NCBI GenBank assembly: GCA_017633195.1
Contig: JAGBPV010000060.1
Location: forward strand, 1 to 17,969
Direction: 5' to 3'
Length of the DNA: 17,969 nt
Source of the DNA: a bacterium
GTDB taxonomy: Bacteria > Bacillota_I > Bacilli_A > Mycoplasmatales > Mycoplasmoidaceae
A program made the translations under genes and the position numbers. This document shows positions 244 through 17,969 of this stretch, piece by piece. The notes below the pieces were generated by a model. The model was not told the origin of the DNA. It made no database searches and saw nothing but the letters and a program-made list of their open reading frames with translations. Within the stretch, counting starts at the first letter, position 1. Every line of letters begins with the position of its first letter.

Positions 244-272
244 ATTATAAATTTAAAAAATTCTTAAATCAA
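244..272 (-). promoter_or_regulatory. Probable sigma-70-type promoter for tpiA
   Basis: On the minus strand a -35 TTGATT (272-267) is followed by a 17-base spacer and a perfect -10 TATAAT (249-244). The -10 overlaps the stop codon region of the upstream mutase gene. The predicted transcript would start near 237 and leave a leader of about 35 bases before the tpiA ATG at 203. The same -35 hexamer and spacer length recur at the surface-protein promoter (11729-11757). Confidence 0.6.
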
Positions 273-1891
273 GCATTTCATGAATTGATTTCACTATCTA
301 AACTAGAAATACTTTTTCCATATAAGTTATAATAAATTTTAAATTTAGGTTCTGTGCCACTTTTTCTAAATCTAATTCATGAATCTTCTTCTAATATTCA
401 ATCAACACATCCACCATCTTCATTAAAACCAATGTAAGTAATCTTTCTATTTAAAACTTCTTTTTCATTAAAATCTAAAAGTTTTTTTAAAATATCATCA
501 ACTTTTTTTCTTCAATTATCACTTTTAATAATGAAAGAAGAAGTTTTTCCTTGTCAATATCCAAATTCACTATAGATTTGGTTTAAATAATCAACAAAAT
601 CTTTATTTTCTTTAATTAAGGTTGTATAAATTTCTAATGCTAATGCTCCTGCTTGAAATCCATCTTTATCACGATTAATACTTGAATTTAAAGCCCCAAT
701 TGCTTCTTCAAATGCTACTACTAAATCATTAACACCGATTTTGTCTGAAATATAATTTCCCATATATTTAAATCCAGTTGGAGTTCTGTGAACTAAAGCA
801 TTATATTTTTTAGCAATTCTATCAACTAAATTTGTTGAAACATATGAACTTACAATATAAGGTTGTAAATTAAATTTTTTATTTTTTAGTACATAATAAC
901 TATAAATAATGCCCATTTCATTTCCAGTTAAAAATCTTCATTCATCATCTCTTTTAATAGCAACAGCCATTCTGTCTGCATCTGGATCATTTGCAATAAT
1001 AATTTTGGCATTGTTTTTTTCAGCATACTTAATTGCTAAATTAAAACTTGAAGGATCTTCTGGATTTACAACATCACTATAAGTGAAATTAGAATCATAT
1101 TCATTTTGTTCTTTAACATCAATAATATTTTGGTATCCAAGCATTCTTAAAAATCTTGGAAATTTCTTAACACTTGTTCCATGATGTCCTGTAAAAACAA
1201 TTGGATAATTTTTTGAAACATTAGGATAAGTATTAATTAAAGCACTTTTTGCTGCAATAAAATAATCATTAATATTATCTCTTGAAATATAAGCAATATT
1301 AGATTTGTCTAATTGATAAACTTTGTCTAAAATTTCATTAAAATTGCTGCAATAACTAATAATGGTATTTGCTTCTTTATCTAAAATTTGTGCTCCATTA
1401 TTTCCATAAATTTTAAAACCATTATAAATTTTTGGATTATGACTTGCTGTAATGTTAATTCCAGCGTGAGCTTTGTATGCTAAAACTGTATATGAAATGA
1501 TTGGAGTTGGCATTAATTCATTATTTTCAAATAATAATGCTTTAATTCCAAAACTACTTAACACTCTTGCACAAATTAAAGCAAAATGACTTGAATTTAA
1601 TCTATTATCGTGTCCTATAACTACAGTAATCTTTTTTTCTTTATCAAATTTTTCTAATAAAAATTTACTTAATCCTTCAGTTAACATTTGATAAGTAAAA
1701 GAATTTAATCTTTGAAATCCTGGACCCATTTGCATTCTTACTCCAGCAGTACCAAATTTTAATGGTTCAGTTTGAAAGATATTTGTAATTTCATCATCTT
1801 CCATGTTTGCTAATTCTGCTTTCATAGTAGCATTAACTCTTGGGTGATTTAATCAAATATTGTAATATTTTTTTGTAAGATCATCTAACAT
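245..1891 (-). CDS. Phosphoglucomutase/phosphomannomutase (alpha-D-phosphohexomutase family)
   Basis: 548 residues, normal for the mycoplasma enzymes usually named manB/pmm/pgm. The family interconverts hexose (and in some members pentose) 1- and 6/5-phosphates through a phosphoserine. Visible motifs are the substrate-entry segment KFGTAGVR near residues 45-52, the phosphoserine loop TASHNPKIYNGFKIYG with Ser150, the Mg-binding loop DPDADR (Asp302, 304, 306), the sugar-binding FEEAIG loop, and the C-terminal phosphate-binding RKSGTEPKFK. The EEAIG form (rather than EESYG) with DKDGFQAG after it is closer to the PGM2 branch, so a phosphopentomutase side activity is plausible but unproven. The start at 1891 has AAGGAG about 13 bases upstream; an internal ATG at 1825 would lose 22 residues. 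It lies 4 bases after cdd, so it is co-transcribed with it. Several Trp are TGA. Confidence 0.93.
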
Positions 1892-1895
1892 CTAT

Positions 1896-2348
1896 TTATT
1901 TTGTCTCCTTCTTTTTATTTAGTAAAAAAGCATTTGGCAATAAATCATTAATTCTAAAAACACTTTTATCCTTATTTATAGAATAACAAATTATATTGTT
2001 ATTTTCGTTAAAAAATTCTTGAATGAATTGTAAACATGCTCCACAAGGAAAGATAATGTCTTTGTAAGTCTTAGAAATATTTGATGCTAATAAGTATAAA
2101 TTTAAGATAGTTTCATCTGCATCTTTATTGCTATAAAAATTACAAATTGCATTTCTTTCAGCACAGATTGTTAAACCAAAACTAGCATTTTCAACATTAT
2201 TACCAAAATAATATTTATACGCATTGTTAGTTTTAGTTTCTAAAACACAACAAACATAAAAATTAGAATATTTTGCATAAGAATTAAATAAATGCTTTTT
2301 TAAATATGAAAAAATTTCATCTTCATTTAATCTAATTTTTAATTTCAT
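1896..2348 (-). CDS. cdd: Cytidine deaminase
   Basis: 150 residues. It hydrolyses cytidine/deoxycytidine to uridine/deoxyuridine in pyrimidine salvage. The zinc site of the small tetrameric class is complete: CAERNAI supplies the first Cys ligand, the catalytic Glu and the charge-balancing Arg, and PCGAC supplies the other two Cys ligands. The C-terminal tail (FLLNKKKETK) is lysine-rich. The start overlaps the end of the deoA-like gene by 17 bases and the stop is 4 bases before the mutase gene, so translation is probably coupled along the operon. No strong ribosome site is visible before the ATG, consistent with coupling. Unlike its upstream neighbour it shows no loss of catalytic residues. 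Confidence 0.93.
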   Translation of the reverse strand: MKLKIRLNEDEIFSYLKKHLFNSYAKYSNFYVCCVLETKTNNAYKYYFGNNVENASFGLTICAERNAICNFYSNKDADETILNLYLLASNISKTYKDIIFPCGACLQFIQEFFNENNNIICYSINKDKSVFRINDLLPNAFLLNKKKETK

Positions 2349-3741
2349 CTTTATTCTTAATAACTTTAATTAAATTTAAATTATCAAAAGCATCTTGAAA
2401 ATAATTTTTCACAGTAATTAATTCTCTTTTATCAAAATATAAGATATTATTGCTAAATAATTCAAGTAAATTTTCATCCATTTTGCTAGAAACATAAATT
2501 ATTGCAATAATTTCATCTTTATTCACTTTATCTCCAGCAATTTTATAAAATAAAATTCCTGCTTGAGTATCAATTTTATTACTAGAATTTAATGAAACAT
2601 TAATACTATTTGCTACATAACTTATTAAACTATAATCTTTAAAATCAATATATCCATCTTGTAATGCTTTAATTTCATACTGGAATTTAGGTGAAAAATA
2701 GCGATTAATTCTAAAATTATTGTATTTTATTAAACTAGCACCTCTTTGTTTTGCACACATTCTTTGAAAAATACTTAAAGCTTTTTTACTTGAAAATAAT
2801 TCTTCAACCATATTTTCAACTTTTTGTTTATCAATAATGAAATTTAATCTATAACAAATTTCACTGACCATCTTTTTTATAACATTTACAACATCAGTTC
2901 AATTTTTATAATTATCAAATAAATTTGTTACTTTTTTAATTTGTAAAGCAGAACCAATATATTTTCCAATCACATTATCTGAACTTGTTAAAAAAAGAAT
3001 AGCTTTCTTTTTAAAAATATTACAAATGTTCAAAATTTGATTAGCAATCTTTCTTGCATTATTAATTGTTTTAATAAAACTACTATTACCAAAAGGTAAA
3101 TTAATAATTAAAATTGTGTTTTTGATTTGAAATTTGTATGATAATAACAAAACAAGATATAAATAAATACTACCATAATCAGCAACTATTAAGTTTTTTA
3201 AAAAGAAATTAAAAAAATCAATAATAGTTTTATCTTGTTCTAAATAAATTAAAGATTCTTCTTTAATAATGCTATTTAGTTTAAAAGAGAAATTACAAGT
3301 TACACCAATGCTATCTAAAGCACTAAAAGTATTTCCAAAGAAATTCATATTTCTAGTAAAAATATAAACAAAATTTAAATTTAATGCACTTAAAATTGGT
3401 CCTAACACTAATGGTAAGCAATCATCAGGTTTATTAAAATTTAAATAATCTAAAACATATCCCTCTTTTTTTTCTAAAGCATTGAATTCTTTTGAAGAGT
3501 CCAAAATGCTTTTAATAAATTCTGTTACTTCTTCTTCATTAATTCCTTTAATATCTAAAGCAGTAATTAAACTTCCTAACTCTAAACCATTTAAATATTT
3601 TAAGTGGTATAAATTCGCTGATTTTTCTCTTAAATATGATATAAAAAAATCGAAATCATTTTTTTGAAAAATAATTCCGTTCTTTTTCTTGTTAGTAAGT
3701 TCTTTTATTGATGAATTGGAAGAAAAACTATTTCTTTTCAT
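2332..3741 (-). CDS. DeoA (pyrimidine-nucleoside phosphorylase) family protein with eroded active site
   Basis: 469 residues in one frame through a TGA-Trp at 2899-2901. Overall order and length fit thymidine phosphorylase: an N-terminal helical segment (IKELTNKKKNGIIFQKNDF), a middle LVLGPILSALNL segment, and a C-terminal segment ending in KNYFQDAFDNLNLIKVIKN. The defining motifs are lost, however. The phosphate-binding KHSTGGVGD region reads LNFNKPDDCLP (residues 100-110). The family signature [20 protein letters not shown] reads FTRNMNFFGNTFSALDSIG (128-146). MDVKVGSGAF reads INLPFGNSSF (213-222). By eye the pyrimidine-binding Arg, Ser and Lys are also replaced. The frame is intact, so it looks like a pseudoenzyme or early decay rather than a broken gene. 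It overlaps the preceding gene by 14 bases and cdd by 17. Family assignment is moderately sure; loss of phosphorolysis is inference. Confidence 0.75.
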
Positions 3742-4159
3742 CTTCCTTTAATGAGCTTGTTCATAAACCACCTTTTGTAGAATATGCATAAGCTTGTACA
3801 GTGGTACCATGTGGGATATGAAAGTTTACTTCTGGTTTTTCATTTTTTGCTAAAAATCTTCTAATTTTTAATGAATCAACATCTAATTCAACAAAAATAA
3901 CTTCATTTTTAGCATGACAGCAGTTTGGATCAGTTCCACCACAGCATTCACCATCTTCATGATCATCACATTCAACTTCTTTTTCTTCATTAACTTTTAC
4001 TGAATATCCAAGTTCAGTTTTTGTAATAACAGGCATGTATGGTTCATCCGCATCATTGCTTGTTCTTACAACATATTCCTTAATGTTTGTTTTGTTCAAA
4101 CTTAGTGGTGAATCAATTTCTAATAATTGACCATCTGGGGTTTCAAAAAACTTTCTCAT
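3728..4159 (-). CDS. Desulfoferrodoxin/superoxide-reductase-like protein lacking the iron ligands, with a Cys/His-rich insert
   Basis: 143 residues after reading a TGA at 3761-3763 as Trp133. The C-terminal two thirds match the superoxide reductase (neelaredoxin) beta-fold: EPYMPVITKTELGYSVKV (39-56) against EKHVPVIEKxxNGYKVxV, then VIFVELD, RRFLAKNEKPEVNF (100-113) against KFLKPGDxPEAEF, and AYAYSTKGGLW (123-133) against AxEYCNLHGLW. The Fe ligands of that family are all replaced: the His of KHVPVI is Tyr41, the Cys of CNxH is Ser127 and its His is Gly130, and the HPMEEKH segment is gone. In its place residues 64-82 carry C64, H67, C72, C73, C80, C81 and H82. The N-terminus has no rubredoxin-type cysteines. 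The start has AAAGG about 9 bases upstream. It occupies the place of deoC between deoD and deoA. The homology is visible; metal binding by the insert is inference. Confidence 0.7.
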
Positions 4160-4207: not shown

Positions 4208-4223
4208 TACTTTTATTTTAAAT
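4201..4223 (-). repeat. Direct repeat copy A (3' side of pgk-deoD)
   Basis: A 23-base sequence spanning the stop codon of the pgk-deoD gene. It matches positions 6199-6221, just before that gene's start, with a single mismatch (C against G at the tenth base, read on the plus strand). Both copies lie in the same orientation and both are just upstream of a minus-strand gene. The sequence is AT-rich, so coincidence is possible. Confidence 0.5.
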
Positions 4224-6186
4224 TAATTTTATTATTTTTTACATAATTATAAATTATTTCTAATCCTAATTTTGCCATATCTTTTAATGAAGTTTGACGT
4301 TCATATGCACTCATTTCTTCATGTGTAATGATATTATCAGAAATTGTTAAGATTCCTATTGCTTTCTTTTTTAGCATGATTGCATTAGCATATAAAGCAA
4401 AAATTTCCATTTCTACTGCTTTACTATTGTTTTTTTCTTGCAATTGTTTTGGACTTAAACAAGTATAAAAACAATCTGTTGAAATTACATTTTCTGCTAA
4501 TAATTTAATATCATTTAATTTTGCAGTTTCTTTTGCTAATATGTCTAAATTATCATCAAGTTTTAAAATCTTTGATTTATCTTTTAAACCTAATTCATTA
4601 GCATAATTTGAATCACTATAAACTTCTTTAGCAAGAATTAAACTTCTTACTTTTAAATCTTTATCAAGTCCTCCTGCTGTGCCTAATCTAATAATTAAAT
4701 CAACATCATAAAACTTGAATAATTCATAACTATAAATCCCAATTGATGGCATCCCCATACCATGACCCATAACAGTAATGAATTGATCTTTATAATAACC
4801 ACTATATCCACTCATGTTTCTAATATTAGTTACTAATTTAACATCACTTAAATAATTTTCAGCAAGTCATTTTGCTCTTAATGGATCACCACAAACTAAC
4901 ACGGTTTTACTAATTTCATCTTTGCTTGCACCAATGTGTGGTGTTAATCCTTTATTTTTATTCATATTACTTAATCCTGGTAAATCTTTTTGTTCTAAAT
5001 AAGCCATACTAGCACCTCCGCCTGTTGAAATAAAACTAAATTTATCTTTATATCCAAAGTTAATTGCAGCACTTGCTGAATCTCCTCCACCAATAATAAC
5101 TTCAGCTCCATTTTTTACTAAATTACTTAAAATATCAAATAATGTTTTAGTACCATGTTGAAAGTTTTGCATTTCTGTTACACCTAAAGGACCATTATAA
5201 AAAACAGTTTTTGCATCTTTTAAAACTTCTTTATATTTAGCTTCTGTTTTTGGTCCAATATCTAATCCCATTAATCCTGTTGCTTCTTTTGAATCAATAT
5301 CAACTGCTTTTCCAGGTTTATCTTCATATTTATCTACACCTATAAAATCTGAAGCTAAAACAATCTTTTTATTAATATCTTTTTTTAAAATATCTCTTGC
5401 AACATCTAATAAATCATCTTCAGTTCTACTAATACCAACATTTAAACCTAATGCTTTAGCAAATGTATAAGTTAATCCACCACTAATAATAACCTTATCA
5501 GCTATTTCTAAGACTTTATAAATGACATTAATTTTATCTCGAACTTTTCCACCACCGAAAATAGCAACAAATGGATGATTTACATGATCTAAAATCTTAC
5601 TTAAAGTTTTTAACTCTTTTTCTACTAAAAATCCAACTGCATTATTTGGTTGATATTTAGCAATAATCGCGTTTGAAGCATGATTTCTGTGAATTGTAGC
5701 AAAAGCATCATTAATATAAACTTCACATAAACTAGCAAAGAATTTAGCTAATTCTTCATCTCCACCACTTTCTTTATTTGTGGTTTTGTGACTAATATTA
5801 CATACATTAAAATATCTTGTATTTTCTAATAATAAAATTTCTTGATTTTTTAATTTATTTGCTGCTTTTTTTATTTCAGCTTCATTTAAACTATTGCAAA
5901 AATAAATTTTTATTTCAGGTAGTTTTTTAACTAATTCATCATAAACAATTTTTAAAGATTTATCGTTATTTTTTATATCTTGTTCACAATTAATTCTTCC
6001 AAGATGTGAAAGAATAATAATCTTACAATTGTTTTTTAATAAGTATTTAATTGTTTCTAAAGATGCATTAATCCTTGTATCATCTAAAATTTTGTTTTCA
6101 TATATTGGTAAATTTAAGTCTAATCTTAAAACAACTTTCTTGTTTTTTAAATCAATATCTTTTAAAGTTTTGTATACAAATTCCAT
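4213..6186 (-). CDS. Phosphoglycerate kinase - purine nucleoside phosphorylase fusion
   Basis: 657 residues in one frame; the only TGA between the halves (4867-4869) is Trp440, inside the PNP domain. Residues 1-407 are PGK (1,3-bisphosphoglycerate + ADP to 3-phosphoglycerate + ATP): RLDLNLP 21-27, SHLGR 60-64, LLENTRYF 119-126, NDAFATIHRNHAS 159-171, GGGKVRDKI 211-219, GPLGVTE 332-338, GGGDSAS 367-373 and STGGGAS 387-393. Residues 414-657 are DeoD-type PNP (phosphorolysis of purine nucleosides): TPHI with His417, GDPLRAK 433-439, MGHGMGMPS 473-481, RLGTAGG 500-506, VEMEIFALY 591-599, and TISDNI with Asp617 followed by ERQTS (629-633). Both active sites look complete. The linker is about 6 residues. 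AGGA precedes the ATG at 6186 by 7 bases. An internal AGGA-9-ATG at 4965 could also give free PNP. PGK has a known fusion precedent (PGK-TIM in Thermotoga); I do not know of a PGK-PNP fusion. Confidence 0.93.
4963..4980 (-). promoter_or_regulatory. Possible internal ribosome-binding site and start codon for the PNP domain
   Basis: Inside the fused gene the codons for PGLSN-Met read CCAGGATTAAGTAATATG on the minus strand, which places AGGA (4978-4975) 9 bases before an ATG (4965-4963). Initiation here would give a 250-residue stand-alone PNP that starts 9 residues before the conserved TPHI, a sensible distance for DeoD. The AGGA also falls in the conserved PGK C-terminal PG dipeptide, so it may be incidental. 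Confidence 0.35.
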
Positions 6187-7436: not shown

Positions 7437-10400
7437 TTAATTTAACATAAAGTCAGAACCTGGATTAATAGTTAAATCTAATCCACTAATTCACATATTA
7501 TTAACTTCAATACTTGAAATAACTACTTGACCATTTGAATTGTTAAGATAAATTTTATATCCGTCAAATTCTTGTTGAATAGCAGAATCAAATCCTAATA
7601 TTTGTGCAACCCAAATCATTTGAAATGTCATTGATGGATGCGGAGTGTTTGCTCAATCAATATAACTTGTTCAAGATGGACTGTCCATTGTATATGTATA
7701 TTGAGGACCTATATCACTAAAATTAAATTTATAATATGTATCATGTGAGTTACTGCTAAATAGTAATGGATACATATATCTTTGATCAAATCAAGCTACA
7801 TTCTTTGTAGTATTGTAATAATTAACTGCTCCTGAATTACCACTATTTACTAATGATGTTAAGTTGTATGTTGCTGAACCTGACACATTTTGATAGAAGT
7901 TTTGAACATTAATCAAACTGTTTTCTCCAAATAAGATTTCTTGACCATCTTCATTTGGAAGAATAAAGTATGCATAATATCTATTATTAATATTTTCAAT
8001 AAGTTTATATGTAATATTAGTTGGATTATTAATTGTTAATTCACCAATTCCATCAAATCCACCAATGTTTATATTTGTGATAGTTAATGAATATGGTAAT
8101 TGTAATAAACTAGCAATGCTTGAATAATTACTGGAATTTGTTAAGTAATTTGATAATTGAACAAAGTTATTAATTCCATAATTGCTCAAACTAACTTGAC
8201 CAATATTAATATCTTGTGCACCAAAAGGATTAATAATATATGAATTTACAGTTACTGGTTTTGCTACTGCTGTTTGAACATAAGATCCATAAGGTGTTTC
8301 ATTAGATGTTGAAATTGGAGTAATTCTATTATTATTTCAGTGATTAAACATTACTGATTCATTAAACGCATATGAAATATTTAAAGTAGGTTTAAAACTA
8401 GCATCTGCTCCAGTTAATTTTAATGATAAACCACTTCCGGCAAATTGACAATTGCCATCTACTGGTTCTAAATAATATCCATATCTGATGTTAGTTGCAT
8501 CTTGCATGTTTGGAACAAAATTATAATTTAAATTTGTAGAAACTGCAAGATATTTTCAAACACCATCAATTGACTTGTAATCACTTCTTGTTGCAATAAT
8601 TTGTGGATATGAATTTTTTACTCCATTATATGTAAAGTAAATAACTGGAATCATTTTGAATTTTACTGCTGTAGTTTGATCTAAATCAACACTTAATCCA
8701 ATATGACCAATTAAAGGAATATTTGTAGCTTCACCATTAATATCTCAAGTCATTTTACTAATAGTTGCTATTTGTGTACTTGGATCATAATTAGAAATTT
8801 GACAATCAAAATTAGAGTAATTTAAAATAGCATCAGATGGCATAGTAGTTACATAATTGTTTGTTACATTTGCCATATTAGCAAAATCATTTTGAATATC
8901 ACTTGCTGTTAAAGTTTGCAATCAACTTTTACAATTTGATAAATATTGGTTAGCAATAGTTTTATTGGATGGTACTAACATTGTATTAAAGTCAGTTAAA
9001 CTAGCATAAACACTGCTTCCTGTTGCATTTAAAAAGATTGTTGATTCTGGAGCAACTGAGATTGGATTAGATGAAGTTGGATCTAATAAAATTGTATTAA
9101 TAGTAGAGTTGTTTTGTAGTTCTAAACTATTAAATTCTAATGTATTTTTACCACTTGCACCTGTTACTACACATGCTTGATAATTTAAAACAGTTAAATA
9201 TCCATCACTAATTAAATTAGAAATAGCTTGTCTCATTTGAATATTATGTGTTGAATCTGGGTTTTCATTTCCAGATAAATTAATATTGTTTAACATTAAA
9301 TATGGATAATTACTATCTGCTACATCAACATTTTGATTTAAATTCAATGTCAAAATAAAACCAGTTATTGTAAATGCATGATTACTAATATTTAATTCTT
9401 GGTAAGGAGAAAATACATAACTTACATTAAAGAAATTAAAGTTCACACATGAATTGCTTGTATTTAATAAATTAAATGAAGTAATATTAATGTAATTACC
9501 ATTAACTTTGTAAGTTAAATTAACAATTTTTAAATCTTTAAAATTTGAATCAATTTGTTCAAATTCTTTAGTAATATAATCAATAATTTTTGTATTGTAA
9601 TAAGAATCTTTATTGATTAAATCCATTGCATTAGTAGATGTAACAAACTGATTATTATTAATTGTTGCAAAATTAATACTAATTGGTGAATCAAAGGATA
9701 AATTAGTTGCTACTTTATTTGAATTTAGATAAATATTATAATTTAATGGAATTTGTGCAATATTTTTTAAATTATTTAATGGGTAAATTGCAACAGGAAC
9801 ACTTGAACCTTTTATATTTAAATAATAAATATTTGAATATTGTACAGCATCATTATTTAAATGTGTGTAATATGCATAATTATAAACTGCAGCGCTTTTT
9901 ACATTAATTATTGCAACATTATTTTCAAATTCAACAGCAACATTAAATGATTTAACTTTTAAATTAGAATTTAAATTAATTAAATTAGTCTTTTGTAATA
10001 ATTGATTGTATAATGAAGGACAATTTTGTGAAGTAACAGTAAAATCATTTGGATTTTCACTATTAATTAAAGCATTTAAATTATCTGAAATATATTCTTG
10101 TAAATTAGAACTTTCTGTATCAAGATTAATAATTCCAGTTGAATTAACTTCTTGGTAAGTGTCAGAATTATTACTATTTGTTTCTGCAACAGGCATACCA
10201 TTAATTCAAGATGTTGGAATGGATTTAGTACCTTTTAAACTGGTTGCTCCATTTTGATAAACTGAACCAAAATTAGATGCATCTGAAAATCCCAAATCAT
10301 TACTATTTGATGGAGTAGTGATATTTTTAGTGTTAAGTGAACTAGTAATATCTCTATTAGTCATTCAAAAATTATAAAACAAGAAAGAAAAAGCAATATT

Positions 10401-11675
10401 TACCATGCTGAATTTCTTACCATTAGGAAGTAATAAACATAAATCACTTTGTGGATTTGCTGCATTAATACCATATCCTAAATGTAATTGTGATGGATCA
10501 GAAGGCATATTAGGATTTTCTGAATTTGAGAAAACTGTTCCACTAATAGTATTTTGAGCAATTGTTGGACTTGTTTGAATTGTTCCATCTTGTTGTCATA
10601 ATAGAATTGGTGTTAAATTAAAAGTCATTGGTTGATTGTTATCAATATTAAAAGTTAATGATTGACCTAGACTTTTAACACCAACTGTTAAAGTACCAGT
10701 AAGTCCACCCAAAATAAATTGTGGTTTTCCAGTTGGACTTTGACTTGAAGGAATAAATTTAGAACCTGCTCAATCTACATTTAATTTTTGAAATTGAATT
10801 TGAGCTTGTGTTCCTTGAACATTAGCATTAATAACTTTTCCACATGCAAAAAAATTAAAAAGATTATATAAGTCTTTTTGAACAATATTTGATCCATTGT
10901 CATTTAAAATACTTTTACATATTTCAATTGGAGTTGTTACTGGCAATTTTGGTGCAGTATATATAACTTGTCCATTTTTCTTTTGAGTAGTAAATGCATT
11001 TGATAAATTATTAATTGTAAATAAGTTATCAATATAACTAAAATTATTAATTATATTTGTTGACAAAGCAGCATTTGTTGTATATTCAACATTACCATTT
11101 TGCATGTATATTCAAACTTTTTGACCTGGTTCAATGAAAAAATATGAAGTTTTTGCATTTTCATTAGATTTATATTGAAATTGAACAGGAACTTTATTAG
11201 GATTAATAATTTGAAGTGCTGCAAATTCTAGTGAACTAGATGCAAAAGTAGCAGGTTGTGCTAAATAATAATTAACAATTTTTAAACTTTGTTGATTATA
11301 AGCATTCAATCATTGAATTCCTATATTATTTAATGCTTCTAAAGTATCAGCAAAAATTGTAGGTTTATTAGTTTTTGAACTAAATAAACTTGCACTTGTA
11401 TTGTTATTTGAAATTGAGTTATTGAAACTTACTGGTGATAACGCAATAGAAGAACCTGAATATGGTTTACCACCACTAACTAGTAAACTTGAATTGGTTG
11501 AAACATATTCTGGAGCTTTACTTTGTGTTTTGGTATTAATTCTTGTTGCTGCAATACTTCCAGCAACAATTACTCCAGCAAATGCAAATGTACCTGCAGT
11601 TGCTAAACCAATAACTAATTTTTTCTTGTTAGAAGATTTTGTTTTTTGTTTTGTAACTGACTTTTTATTAAACAT
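7437..11675 (-). CDS. Large surface-exposed protein with N-terminal signal anchor, function unknown
   Basis: 1412 residues once at least 16 in-frame TGA codons are read as Trp. The N-terminus is basic (KKSVTKQKTKSSNKKK), then one hydrophobic segment (about 20-44, LVIGLATAGTFAFAGVIVAG) with no lipobox Cys. It is therefore a signal anchor or Sec signal rather than a lipoprotein signal. The remainder is rich in Asn, Ser, Thr, Tyr and Ile and poor in Lys/Glu, which is typical of mollicute surface adhesin-like proteins and suggests extracellular beta structure. There is no C-terminal anchor. It holds nine Cys, all in the middle (codons between about 8430 and 10940), for example EICKS, FFACGK, NCPSL, FDCQI and GNCQF. 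I found no clear internal repeats or adhesin signature by eye. A GAGAG-like weak ribosome site precedes the start. It is first in an operon with the four-TM protein. Adhesion is a guess. Confidence 0.88.
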
Positions 11676-11728
11676 TTTTTTCTCTCACTTAATATAACCA
11701 ATATTTTTTGTAATATCATTTAATCATT

Positions 11729-11757
11729 TTATTAGCATATAATATTTTTTAAATCAA
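11729..11757 (-). promoter_or_regulatory. Probable promoter of the surface-protein operon
   Basis: On the minus strand a -35 TTGATT (11757-11752) is separated by 17 bases from TAATAA (11734-11729), which is preceded by TGC, an extended -10 (TGn). The -35 and spacing equal those of the tpiA promoter. The leader to the ATG at 11675 would be about 45-50 bases. Confidence 0.5.
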
Positions 11758-14849: not shown

Positions 14850-16292
14850 ATGAATACTAAAACACCATACTTAATAACTGATGATTCAATAAAGTTCAAT
14901 TATAAAGAACTGAAATTAAATGACAAAAAATATCAAAAAATTTTAGGAAATCTTTTAGAGATAAATAAGAATACTACATCTGAGTTATTTAGTTATTTAA
15001 GTAATTTTAATAAAGATCTTAATTCTTTTTTAACAAAACAAGATATTGAAATAATTTTAAATAATGCAGATTTTAAAATTCAATTAAATCCAGATATTGA
15101 ACATATTAAAATTGAAGAAGAATTAAAAAATACTAAAAATAATATTGATGATTTTTTTTCAAAAATTAAATCTTGTGAATTATTGAATAAAGATCAAATT
15201 CAAGATTGAAAAAATAATATAGATAATAAACAAAAATCAGAATTTTACAAAAAAATTATTTGAGAAAATTTAAAGAAGAAAAAAAGTAACTTTTTATTTG
15301 AATGAAAAAATATTCAAAAACAAATTCATACACTTTATAATGAAACTGGAATTTGACCTTATTATATTGCTACATATTTCATACAAACAAATATTAATTC
15401 CTTACAAATTCAAGCTCCTTTTATTTTGAAAAAAGTTGATATTGAAATTTATGGTAATGATGTTTATTTAACTTCTTATTCACCGCTTTGTGAATTAAAT
15501 GAAAAACTATTATTTTTATTAGAACAACAAAGAGGAATTAATCCACCTAAATTAAATCCAGAATTAAATAGTATTAATATTAATCAATTAAATGAAGAAT
15601 TAAATAGTTATTTTCATAATTTGATTAACAATAAAGATATTTTAATAACGAATAACTTTAATAATGATTGAAAAACTAAAATTCTTCAATTAGAAGATGA
15701 AATTAATAAAACTAGTGGAATAATTAGCATGTTTTGTGCTGCTACAAGTGGACAAATTTTAAGAAAAGTAATTTTAAGATTAATAAAAGAAAATAAAATG
15801 GATAATTTATTGCATATTGATGAAAATTATGATATTTTTAGTTTTAAACAAAATGCAATAAATAATCTAATAATTAAAAAAGAACCAATTGTAAGAATTT
15901 GTCCAACTGATCCTAGTCAAGAAAAAGCCATTATTCAAGCATTAAATAACAGTTTAATTATTATTGGACCCCCAGGAACAGGAAAAAGTCAAACAATTGC
16001 AAATTTATTAGCAAATATTTTATATAAAAATAAAAAAGCATTGTTTATTTCACAAAAAAAGGTTGCATTAGATGTTGTATTAGAAAGAATGCATGATTTG
16101 CAATATTTTTGTTTACAGTTAACTCCAAAAGATACAAGTATTAATAAGAATAAGATTAAAGAAGATTTTTATAAAAAATTACAAAAATTATTTGAAATAT
16201 TAAGTGAAACAAATAATTTAAGCAATGTTGAAAATAATATTACTAGTTTAGTTTCAAATTCACAACAAAAATATTGAGATTTAAAAAAATAA
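14850..16292 (+). CDS. Superfamily-1 helicase/ATPase, N-terminal part (frame broken at its 3' end)
   Basis: 480 residues before a TAA at 16290-16292. It is the first part of a DUF4011-type SF1 helicase, like the large putative helicase MG140/MPN153 of M. genitalium/M. pneumoniae. The N-terminal domain shows GIWPYYIATYFIQ and QAPFILKKVDIEIYG, matching the YLAxGFL and RAPLLLxPV segments of that family. Next come CPTDPSQEKAI (the Q motif region) and Walker A GPPGTGKSQT (373-382). Motifs Ia and after (ALFISQKKVALDVV) follow. The remaining helicase motifs continue in the +1 frame from 16285, so a product ending here would lack motifs II-VI and could not unwind. Several TGA-Trp lie inside. Ribosome site AAAGGA precedes the ATG. 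The break lies in seven A (16283-16289). Confidence 0.85.
16283..16292 (+). other. Frameshift site: A7 tract followed by TAA
   Basis: The zero frame reads GAT TTA AAA AAA TAA. The +1 frame opens at 16285 and carries the rest of the helicase. One A fewer in the run would give D-L-K-N-K-Y-S-N without interruption. It may be a real mutation, a sequencing error, a phase-variable tract, or a site where RNA polymerase or ribosome slippage restores the frame. Confidence 0.8.
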
Positions 16293-17969
16293 ATATAGTA
16301 ATTTAGATGAAAATATCTTAAATGATTTTTACAATTTATGTGCATCTTATAAATCGTTAAATAAAGAAAGATTTCTAATAATAAAACAATTGGTTAATGA
16401 TTTTAAAGAAAAAGGGATTTTAGATAAAGTTAATGAAGCATACAAAAATCAAATTGGAATAAATATTGAACAATTTGCAACCTTTTTTAGTTATCACAAG
16501 AAGGGAATTTTTAAGAAAGATTATGATCAAAATGTTTATGATTTTTTTCATCAATATGAAAAATTTTTTAACACATTAAATGAATCTAAATTAACATATG
16601 ATGATTATTTAAAACTTAATCAATATTTTGATAATGATATTTACTTAAATTTGTATGATGATTTATATAAACCTTTTGATACCTTACCTAAATTAAATAA
16701 TTTTGTTTCTAATTTAAAATTATTAATTAAACAACAAACTAATAGTTTTATTCACAAAATAAATACATCATTAGCATTAAAAAATGAATATAACAAAATG
16801 AAGGGAAAAATTGATCAAGGGTTTTTATTTATAGAAAAATTCTTAAAATTTTATGAAAATTTACTAAAAAATTTATTTCCAATAATTGTTGCAAATCCAG
16901 ATACTTTATCATCTTTTATTAATTTTGAAAAAGATCAATATGATTATGTAATTTTTGATGAAGCTAGTCAGATTTTTTTAGAAAAAGCAATTCCTTATTT
17001 AAGTATTGCTAAAAAAGTAATTATTGCTGGTGATAGTGAACAAATGCAACCAACTAATTGATATGGTTTTAGAATCAATGACAATGATGATGAAAATGAA
17101 ATTAGTGAAGAAAAAGAAGATTCATTATTAAATTATGCTATTTCAAGTGGTTTAACTTCTTTAACTTTGGAATTAAATTATAGATCTAATAATGCAAGTT
17201 TAACTTCTTTTTCATCCAAGGAATTTTATAATTCAAATTTAAAATCAGTTGATTTAAATCAAATCTATAATAATCCAATTGAAGTTATTGAAGTCAATGG
17301 AAAATGAAGTTGTCAAACAAATCATGAAGAAGCAATTAAAATGATTGAGTTATTAAAACAAAATTATACAAAATATAACAAGATTATTTTATTGACTTTA
17401 AATAAAACTCAATGTGATTATGTTAATGAATTATTAAGTAAAGAGCCTGAGCTTTATGAATTAATTTTTAAAAATCGTGTAATTTTAAAAAATCTAGAAA
17501 ATATTCAAGGTGATGAAGCAGACTTAGTGATTATTAGTATTGCATATACTAAGAATGCTTGTTTAGATTCAACATATGTTGCTAGAAGCGGTGGAAGAAA
17601 TGCTTTAAATGTTGCAATTACTAGAGCAAAACAAAAAATGATTGTATTAAAATCAATTAAAGCAAGCGAAATTAAATCAAGTAATAGAAGTAGTATAGAT
17701 TTGGATACATTTAAAAGATGATTAAGTTTTTTAGAATTAAACAGTGAACAACAAAAAGAATATTGCATTATACAAAGTGAATTAACTAGTGAATTTGATT
17801 CTAAATTTGAAAAAGAAGTTTTTGAATGATTAATAAAACAAAAATATGACAAAAAAGTAAAAATCACTAATCAATATCCAGTAGGTTCATATAATATTGA
17901 TTTTGCAATTGTTGATGCAGATACAAATCAATATTTATTAGGATTAGAAGTAGATGGATTTAAATATCA
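16285..17969 (+). CDS. Superfamily-1 helicase C-terminal part with restriction-endonuclease-like domain (runs off the window)
   Basis: About 560 residues, open from 16285 to the window end, with no good start codon or ribosome site of its own; it is the continuation of the gene that starts at 14850. After a helical spacer it has motif II YVIFDEASQ (about 16948-16974), motif III AGDSEQMQP, LELNYRS (motif IV), QGDEADLVIISI (motif V) and NVAITRAKQKMIVL (motif VI). This order is that of the Upf1/Dna2-like SF1 group. An acidic insert (DNDDENEISEEKED) follows motif III. The C-terminus carries a PD-(D/E)xK nuclease-like domain of the kind often fused to such helicases: FEKEVFEWL, then NQYPVGSYNIDFAIVD, and LGLEVDGFKY at the edge. 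The catalytic Asp and Glu-x-Asp residues appear kept. The cellular role (DNA repair or processing) is inferred from the family. Confidence 0.85.

Follow-up and report, generated by a model that had tools for sequence, protein, structure and literature searches.

The locus and the fused open reading frame

The window, meaning the whole stretch of 17,969 nucleotides analysed here, carries on its minus strand a single open reading frame of 657 codons (6186→4213), read with code 4 and free of internal TAA and TAG, in which two complete enzymes succeed one another, first a phosphoglycerate kinase (PGK) and then a purine nucleoside phosphorylase (PNP) of the DeoD type, as summarized in Table 1. The one in-frame TGA (bases 4867-4869) encodes W440 and lies inside the PNP half, so it is this half that needs code 4 to be read. 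Pfam PF00162 matches over its full profile (1-379 of 379; E 7.8e-121; 404.1 bits against a cut-off of 27), Pfam PNP_UDP_1 matches with E 1.8e-27, and the NCBIfam deoD family TIGR00107 covers residues 417-645 (profile 1-229 of 232) at 260.4 bits, above its cut-off of 232.25. In a sequence search of the PDB, the best PGK match is the Thermotoga maritima enzyme (1vpe; residues 7-411, E 1.7e-101), and DeoD chains align mostly from about residue 415 of the fused protein onward. An earlier sequence-only reading had described one frame with full PGK and then full DeoD motifs, joined by about six residues without a stop; the reading frame, Pfam, and NCBIfam bear this out on the minus strand, which that reading left unstated, and a linker of about nine residues (406-414) comes close to the claimed length.

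The junction reads GGGAS-M394-AYLEQKDLPGLSN-M408-NKNKGL-T415-P-H417-I-G. The PGK tail LPGL ends at residue 405, the linker follows as S-N-M408-N-K-N-K-G-L, and the DeoD part begins at T415-P-H-I-G; the C-terminal LPGL of PGK and the TPHIGA start of DeoD are thus both kept. H417 is equivalent to His4 of DeoD, which we take to contact the ribose in the neighbouring active site.

Table 1. Features of the fused gene and its cluster, with positions in the window.
Feature	Position	Strand	Evidence
Fused ORF, PGK then DeoD-type PNP, 657 aa	4213..6186	-	ORF, Pfam, NCBIfam
PGK domain (PF00162), residues 8-400	4987..6165	-	Pfam match; 72/80 invariant columns kept
PNP half, residues 408-657 (M408 codon 4963-4965)	4213..4965	-	PF01048 at 428-640; DeoD alignment from T415; 39/40 invariant columns kept
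H417, equivalent of DeoD His4, immediately past the linker	4936..4938	-	Alignment
Candidate internal start 1: GGAGG (5015-5019), 7 bases, ATG (M394); within the PGK GGGAS motif	5005..5019	-	Duplex -9.0 kcal/mol
Candidate internal start 2: AGGA (4975-4978), 9 bases, ATG (M408); probable old deoD start	4963..4978	-	Duplex -4.1 kcal/mol
143-aa ORF, weakly superoxide reductase-like, second gene of the cluster	3728..4159	-	Partial dfx_rbo match, 26 bits (cut-off 146.9)
deoA-like pyrimidine nucleoside phosphorylase paralogue, catalytic motifs lost	2332..3741	-	Pfam, NCBIfam, alignment
cdd, cytidine deaminase	1896..2348	-	Pfam, NCBIfam
Phosphohexomutase/pentomutase-type protein (pgm/manB-like)	245..1891	-	Pfam, NCBIfam; 51% to the last deo-cluster gene of L154

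The genes of the cluster, in the order pgk::deoD, superoxide-reductase-like ORF, deoA-like ORF, cdd, and pgm, are closely spaced or overlapping. The sequence-only reading had placed deoD at the front of the deo cluster in pneumoniae-group mycoplasmas; deoD heads the deo-type cluster in the relatives' operons examined here (L002, L154, L155, L156, L158, L160, and L161), where it is followed by deoA, cdd, and pgm, usually after a 212-213-aa ORF that is missing in L158 and that presumably is deoC, as it reads (L160 is cut at cdd). Since deoD is here fused to pgk, the deo cluster of the window begins with pgk.

The 143-aa ORF has no Pfam match; it contains a Cys/His-rich insert and bears a weak, partial likeness to desulfoferrodoxin/superoxide reductase. 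The deoA-like protein reaches 152 bits against TIGR02644 (cut-off 409), and the KHSTGGVGDK, SGxGLGxTGGTIDKLxSI, and DVKVGDG motifs of its relatives are gone, although the protein is still conserved (P0237 77%, P0242 45%, P0246 43%); it looks like a conserved enzyme that is catalytically dead or repurposed. Elsewhere in the window, two neighbouring plus-strand ORFs (14850-16292 and 16390-17967) look like a single AAA_11/AAA_12 helicase in two pieces, and at the end of the second there is a nuclease-like match to MTES_1575 that stays below threshold. A minus-strand ORF (7437-11738) encodes a protein of 1433 aa that has no Pfam match and starts with a hydrophobic segment; it is possibly surface-exposed or secreted.

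Conservation and rarity of the fusion

The sequence-only reading had proposed a search for other proteins in which PF00162 precedes PF01048. A search with residues 360-657 against about 5.8 billion proteins returned 1360 matches, and two of the best 120, which were listed, carry both Pfam domains. P0001 (657 aa, a cluster of 16 member sequences) is 98% identical over the searched part, and P0002, a protein of 651 aa from a cluster of 21 sequences whose longest contig has 64,975 bases, is 67% identical; the junction is the same in both. To these is added P0059 (438 aa, a cluster of two sequences), a protein cut by the contig end 31 residues into its PNP half, which reads PGK...LHGLTYMDKKGLTPHIS...GDPLRAK and was counted as fused from reading these 31 residues by eye. 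The three clusters draw on two sources, ena and lgn. The longest contig of the deoA-like relative P0242 also has 64,975 bases and is probably the same contig as that of P0002.

No further fused protein appeared among the 120 listed of 7739 matches to P0002, and a scan of viral contigs with P0002 gave no match. In the order holding the genome G004 (Ureaplasma sp. Hg2), a match to at least one half at E 1e-20 is present in 312 of 320 genomes, and no fused copy was seen among the best 150 places listed, at the head of which such a copy would be expected; in a scan of genome contigs, no match spans both halves among 80 of 207 relatives. In trees of each half, the fused PGKs (four rows) are monophyletic with full support, as are the fused DeoDs (three rows). 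To judge from these sequences, the PGK-PNP fusion is real and conserved between diverged relatives, and its carriers belong to a lineage close to the mycoplasma order of G004 that has apparently not been cultivated.

Tandem pgk-deoD genes and the origin of the fusion

Two of the best 150 places listed in the genome scan, in G302 and G300, span both halves, each as separate ORFs. In G300, pgk and deoD are in frame with one stop and 9 in-frame bases between them; in G302, they are in frame with a stop and 9 bases that include a second in-frame stop. Among the 73 genomes for which both places were listed (drawn from 152 PGK places, which include G004 and G005, and 150 DeoD places, which include G005, with only the PGK portion entered for G300 and G302, where one match covers both halves), pgk and deoD share a contig in 45, and in six the strand that bears deoD also has pgk no more than 3 kb upstream: G004, G161, G300, G302, G303, and G305. 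The two genes adjoin directly in five of these, separated by 11 (G004), 9 (G300), 9 (G302), -1 (G303, a TAATG overlap), and 20 bases (G305); G161 has a deoxynucleoside kinase (dNK, PF01712) between them. The PGK of G303 (L153, 1093-3369) is 758 aa long because its C-terminus is extended by about 340 acidic, repetitive residues, and it is its stop that overlaps the deoD start. The PGK ORF of G218 (L119), at about 600 aa, is also much above the usual length.

The sequence-only reading had derived the fusion from the loss of the pgk stop. The in-frame joint stands; stop loss by itself may not account for it, since deoD heads the deo genes of the relatives examined and pgk comes directly after gap in 28 of the 35 genomes inspected (not a random sample, as G303, G305, and G161 were included for their apparent pgk/deoD adjacency). 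Unless the two genes already stood in an ancestral tandem like that of G300, a relocation of pgk is required as well.

The trees bear on this question with 31 unfused PGK rows and 41 unfused DeoD rows, each including two outgroups (G006 and G007), sampled from the 312 genomes that match either half and the 301 with a DeoD match. Among the relatives are near-copies (G275/G279/G274 and G276/G277/G278), and locus counts do not equal independent lineages. The PNP pieces of the window and P0001 begin at N409, and the PGK pieces carry a few linker residues; no effect of either is expected. In the PGK tree, the fused rows and four tandem genomes lie on one side of a branch with support of 85/94, which is not firm, and the fifth tandem, G004, lies elsewhere; holding the fused rows with G275-G279 and G003 gives p-AU 0.068. 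In the best DeoD tree, fused and tandem rows are apart, and holding the fused rows with all five tandems gives p-AU 0.11, with four 0.007. On a common origin of the fused clade and the tandems, the PGK tree thus leans for and the DeoD tree against. The stems of the fused clade are long in both trees, at 0.79 and 0.81 changes per column, which could reflect relaxed selection.

A proposed bifunctional enzyme at the head of a deo-type operon

Passages of PMC6609329, citing Pollack 2002, describe mycoplasmas as lacking ndk, with PGK acting on purine (d)NDPs and not on pyrimidines; phosphorylation of GDP, dADP, and dGDP by PGK is reported there for other mycoplasmas. A search for NDK (PF00334) found no match in any of 16 relatives, whose genome completeness is not given, and found matches in 12 of 14 control genomes, so that these cells, too, are probably without an NDP kinase. 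Because of this, PGK would here also serve as a purine NDP kinase, and because PNP takes purine nucleosides, both halves of the fusion would act on purines, one at each end of the salvage route. This link, which rests on the role reported for mycoplasma PGK as a substitute purine NDP kinase, was overlooked in the sequence-only reading, as were the candidate internal starts described below and the lost catalytic motifs of the deoA-like protein.

Our favoured explanation, held with moderate confidence, is that the gene encodes a conserved, functional bifunctional PGK-PNP enzyme heading a deo-type operon, selected for co-production and not for channelling. The PGK half would convert 1,3-BPG and a (d)NDP into 3-PG and a (d)NTP, and the PNP half would convert a purine (deoxy)nucleoside and phosphate into the base and (deoxy)ribose-1-P, or the reverse. 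The PNP half may form the usual hexamer, with PGK lobes carried on its N-termini. In this way a single product from the head of the operon would couple the step that opens purine salvage to the one that closes it. Phosphoribosyltransferase and nucleotide kinase steps lie between the PNP and PGK reactions, and for this reason we do not expect direct channelling; with no metabolite common to the two steps, the advantage would most likely lie in co-production at a fixed ratio and not in channelling. Of the options that the sequence-only reading had listed, the real bifunctional protein is the one we favour, in this form, and the neutral fusion is kept as the main rival. The occurrence of pgk close upstream of deoD in 6 of the 73 genomes counts as support for the favoured explanation. 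Set against it are the facts that the PGK and PNP steps are not consecutive, that one other fusion partner of PNP (GNAT) is no salvage enzyme, and that one fusion, P0007, has its PNP at the N-terminus.

A neutral origin is a distinctly less probable, though serious, account, according to which an operon accident was fixed without advantage in a shrinking genome and both enzymes work as before. The missing common metabolite fits this account, as do the long stems, which would agree with fast drift; extra residues at the N-terminus of DeoD seem to be tolerated (in the solved chain 4m7w, the match begins only at residue 25 of 258, presumably after a tag), and the partners to which PNP is joined are diverse, with GNAT among them and many in single-member clusters. 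Against it stand the retention of the junction in three lineages, across divergence to 67% identity, and the recurrence of the pgk-deoD neighbourhood in other mollicutes.

Candidate internal starts

A second alternative, which we regard as unlikely, is that the gene yields two products, the full-length PGK-PNP and a free PNP from candidate starts at M394 or M408, with the codons of GGGAS doubling as a ribosome-binding site. We calculated anti-Shine-Dalgarno pairing at 12 gene starts and at the 62 internal in-frame ATGs of the fused gene. The pairing at M394 is the strongest of the 62 (the best real start, that of pgm, reaches -9.1 kcal/mol), and M408 ranks sixth, about equal to the fused gene's own start (-4.2 kcal/mol). 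Both methionines are present in all three fused lineages, while position 394 is leucine in 29 of 30 locus PGKs that are unfused and carry the motif (two outgroups included) and in 163 of 169 others that have it; the two residues before M408 vary between the fused lineages (SN, AF, and TY). These points favour a second product, but the glycine codons partly force GGAGG, which is also present in 12 of 32 distinct unfused PGK sequences, and methionine at 394 occurs in 7 of 199 unfused PGKs as well, one of them from the mollicute G005. M394 may, moreover, be one inherited change, and three lineages are few. Pairing is a weak predictor, as the mem378, lipo, p204, trmB, and ispH starts have no such pairing, and it was computed on the DNA of the window alone, P0002 and P0059 being known as protein.

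An extended form of this idea, which we put forward as speculative and rather improbable, combines it with the kinase role of PGK: PGK, as purine (d)NDP kinase of cells without NDP kinase, and PNP would have been joined as one purine-handling enzyme, and the GGGAS codons with the clade-wide Leu-to-Met change would have become an internal start that also yields free PNP, giving mixed hexamers with a tunable number of PGK arms.

State of both halves

Invariant columns were defined as those at least 97% constant in unfused rows, which gives 80 columns for PGK (202 rows) and 40 for PNP (41 rows). In the order window, P0001, P0002, and P0059, the fused PGKs keep 72, 72, 73, and 72 of the 80, and the PNPs of the first three keep 39, 39, and 38 of the 40; over all compared columns, the match to the consensus is about 52% for PGK and 51-57% for PNP (203/391 and 135/235 in the window). 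The single changed invariant column in the PNP of the window is T54S, numbered along the PNP piece as cut for the alignment. On the PGK side, the four fused rows share changes at otherwise invariant columns (D127N, W150F/Y, G163A, and W330Y, with G102 and G174 replaced), G163A falling in the DAFGTAHRAHAS motif, and because of these clade-wide changes the kinetics of the fused PGK may differ. An AlphaFold2 monomer model has a mean pLDDT of 92.9 and a pTM of 0.73, with blocks over residues 391-420 at 86, 84, and 81; its PGK fold matches 1vpe with a TM-score of 0.93 by target length, and the 50 matches listed in a structure search are all PGK.

Both halves thus look active, and a pseudogene half was set aside, nearly all invariant columns of both families being kept. 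It is very improbable that one half is now non-enzymatic or repurposed, as the adjoining deoA-like protein appears to be. That protein, conserved despite the loss of KHSTGGVGDK and other motifs, offers a precedent, and the shared PGK changes, G163A in particular, point the same way; the fused halves, however, unlike the deoA-like protein, keep nearly all of their invariant columns, and PGK is required for glycolytic ATP, with no second pgk in the 18-kb window. An assembly or sequencing error that removed a stop, a concern of the sequence-only reading as long as the fusion was seen in a single window, is refuted to near certainty by the identical junction in P0001, P0002, and P0059 (16, 2​1, and 2 sequences) from both sources.

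Comparison with known systems

No paper describing the PGK-PNP pair was found in the open-access literature searched, in agreement with the sequence-only reading, and the passages of a PGK review that name PGK-TIM as the two-enzyme fusion contain the term 'nucleoside phosphorylase' 0 times (PMC7729029). The PGK-PNP protein is apparently an undescribed pairing within the known class of bifunctional fusions, whose members, according to passages of the same review, usually join steps with a common metabolite (PMC7729029). Here an ATP-forming enzyme of glycolysis is linked to one of salvage, and the fusion is conserved and not a one-off, and long-lived in a probably reduced genome. If the purine-kinase role of PGK selected the fusion, it would be natural evidence for the idea that minimal cells use glycolytic kinases in place of NDP kinase, and it is a possible case of a coding motif that doubles as an internal ribosome-binding site.

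The closest parallel on the PGK side is the PGK-TIM of Thermotoga (NCBIfam NF010569 / PRK13962), in which an N-terminal PGK is likewise in frame with another complete enzyme and the two reactions are likewise not consecutive (passages of PMC7729029). The partner here is a DeoD-type PNP and not TIM; Thermotoga also has a free PGK (passages of PMC7729029), whereas none is seen in this window. Tested for membership of NF010569, the fused protein reaches 391.1 bits against a cut-off of 883, through its PGK part only, and has no TIM match.

The pgk-deoD tandems of Ureaplasma sp. Hg2, G300, G302, G303, and G305 resemble the fusion in gene order and strand, with deoD coming directly after pgk. They differ in being two ORFs, in being followed by HU (G004, G300, G302, and G303) or metK (G305) instead of deoA-cdd-pgm, and in that their DeoDs lie, though not firmly, on another branch of the DeoD tree than the fused DeoD.

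On the PNP side, PNP is the C-terminal domain, as it is here, in six of the seven other PNP fusions scanned, where it follows DeoB-type (P0003/P0005), phosphoribosyltransferase (P0010), DeoC (P0011), PGM (P0040), or GNAT (P0014) domains; in the seventh, P0007, PNP comes first and is joined to cytidine deaminase. Most partners come from nucleoside or pentose-phosphate metabolism, and salvage partners upstream of PNP are, as far as these domain orders indicate, a recurring pattern. The present fusion differs in that its partner is a glycolytic kinase and in that its clusters hold 16 and 21 members, whereas those of P0010 and P0040 are single-member.
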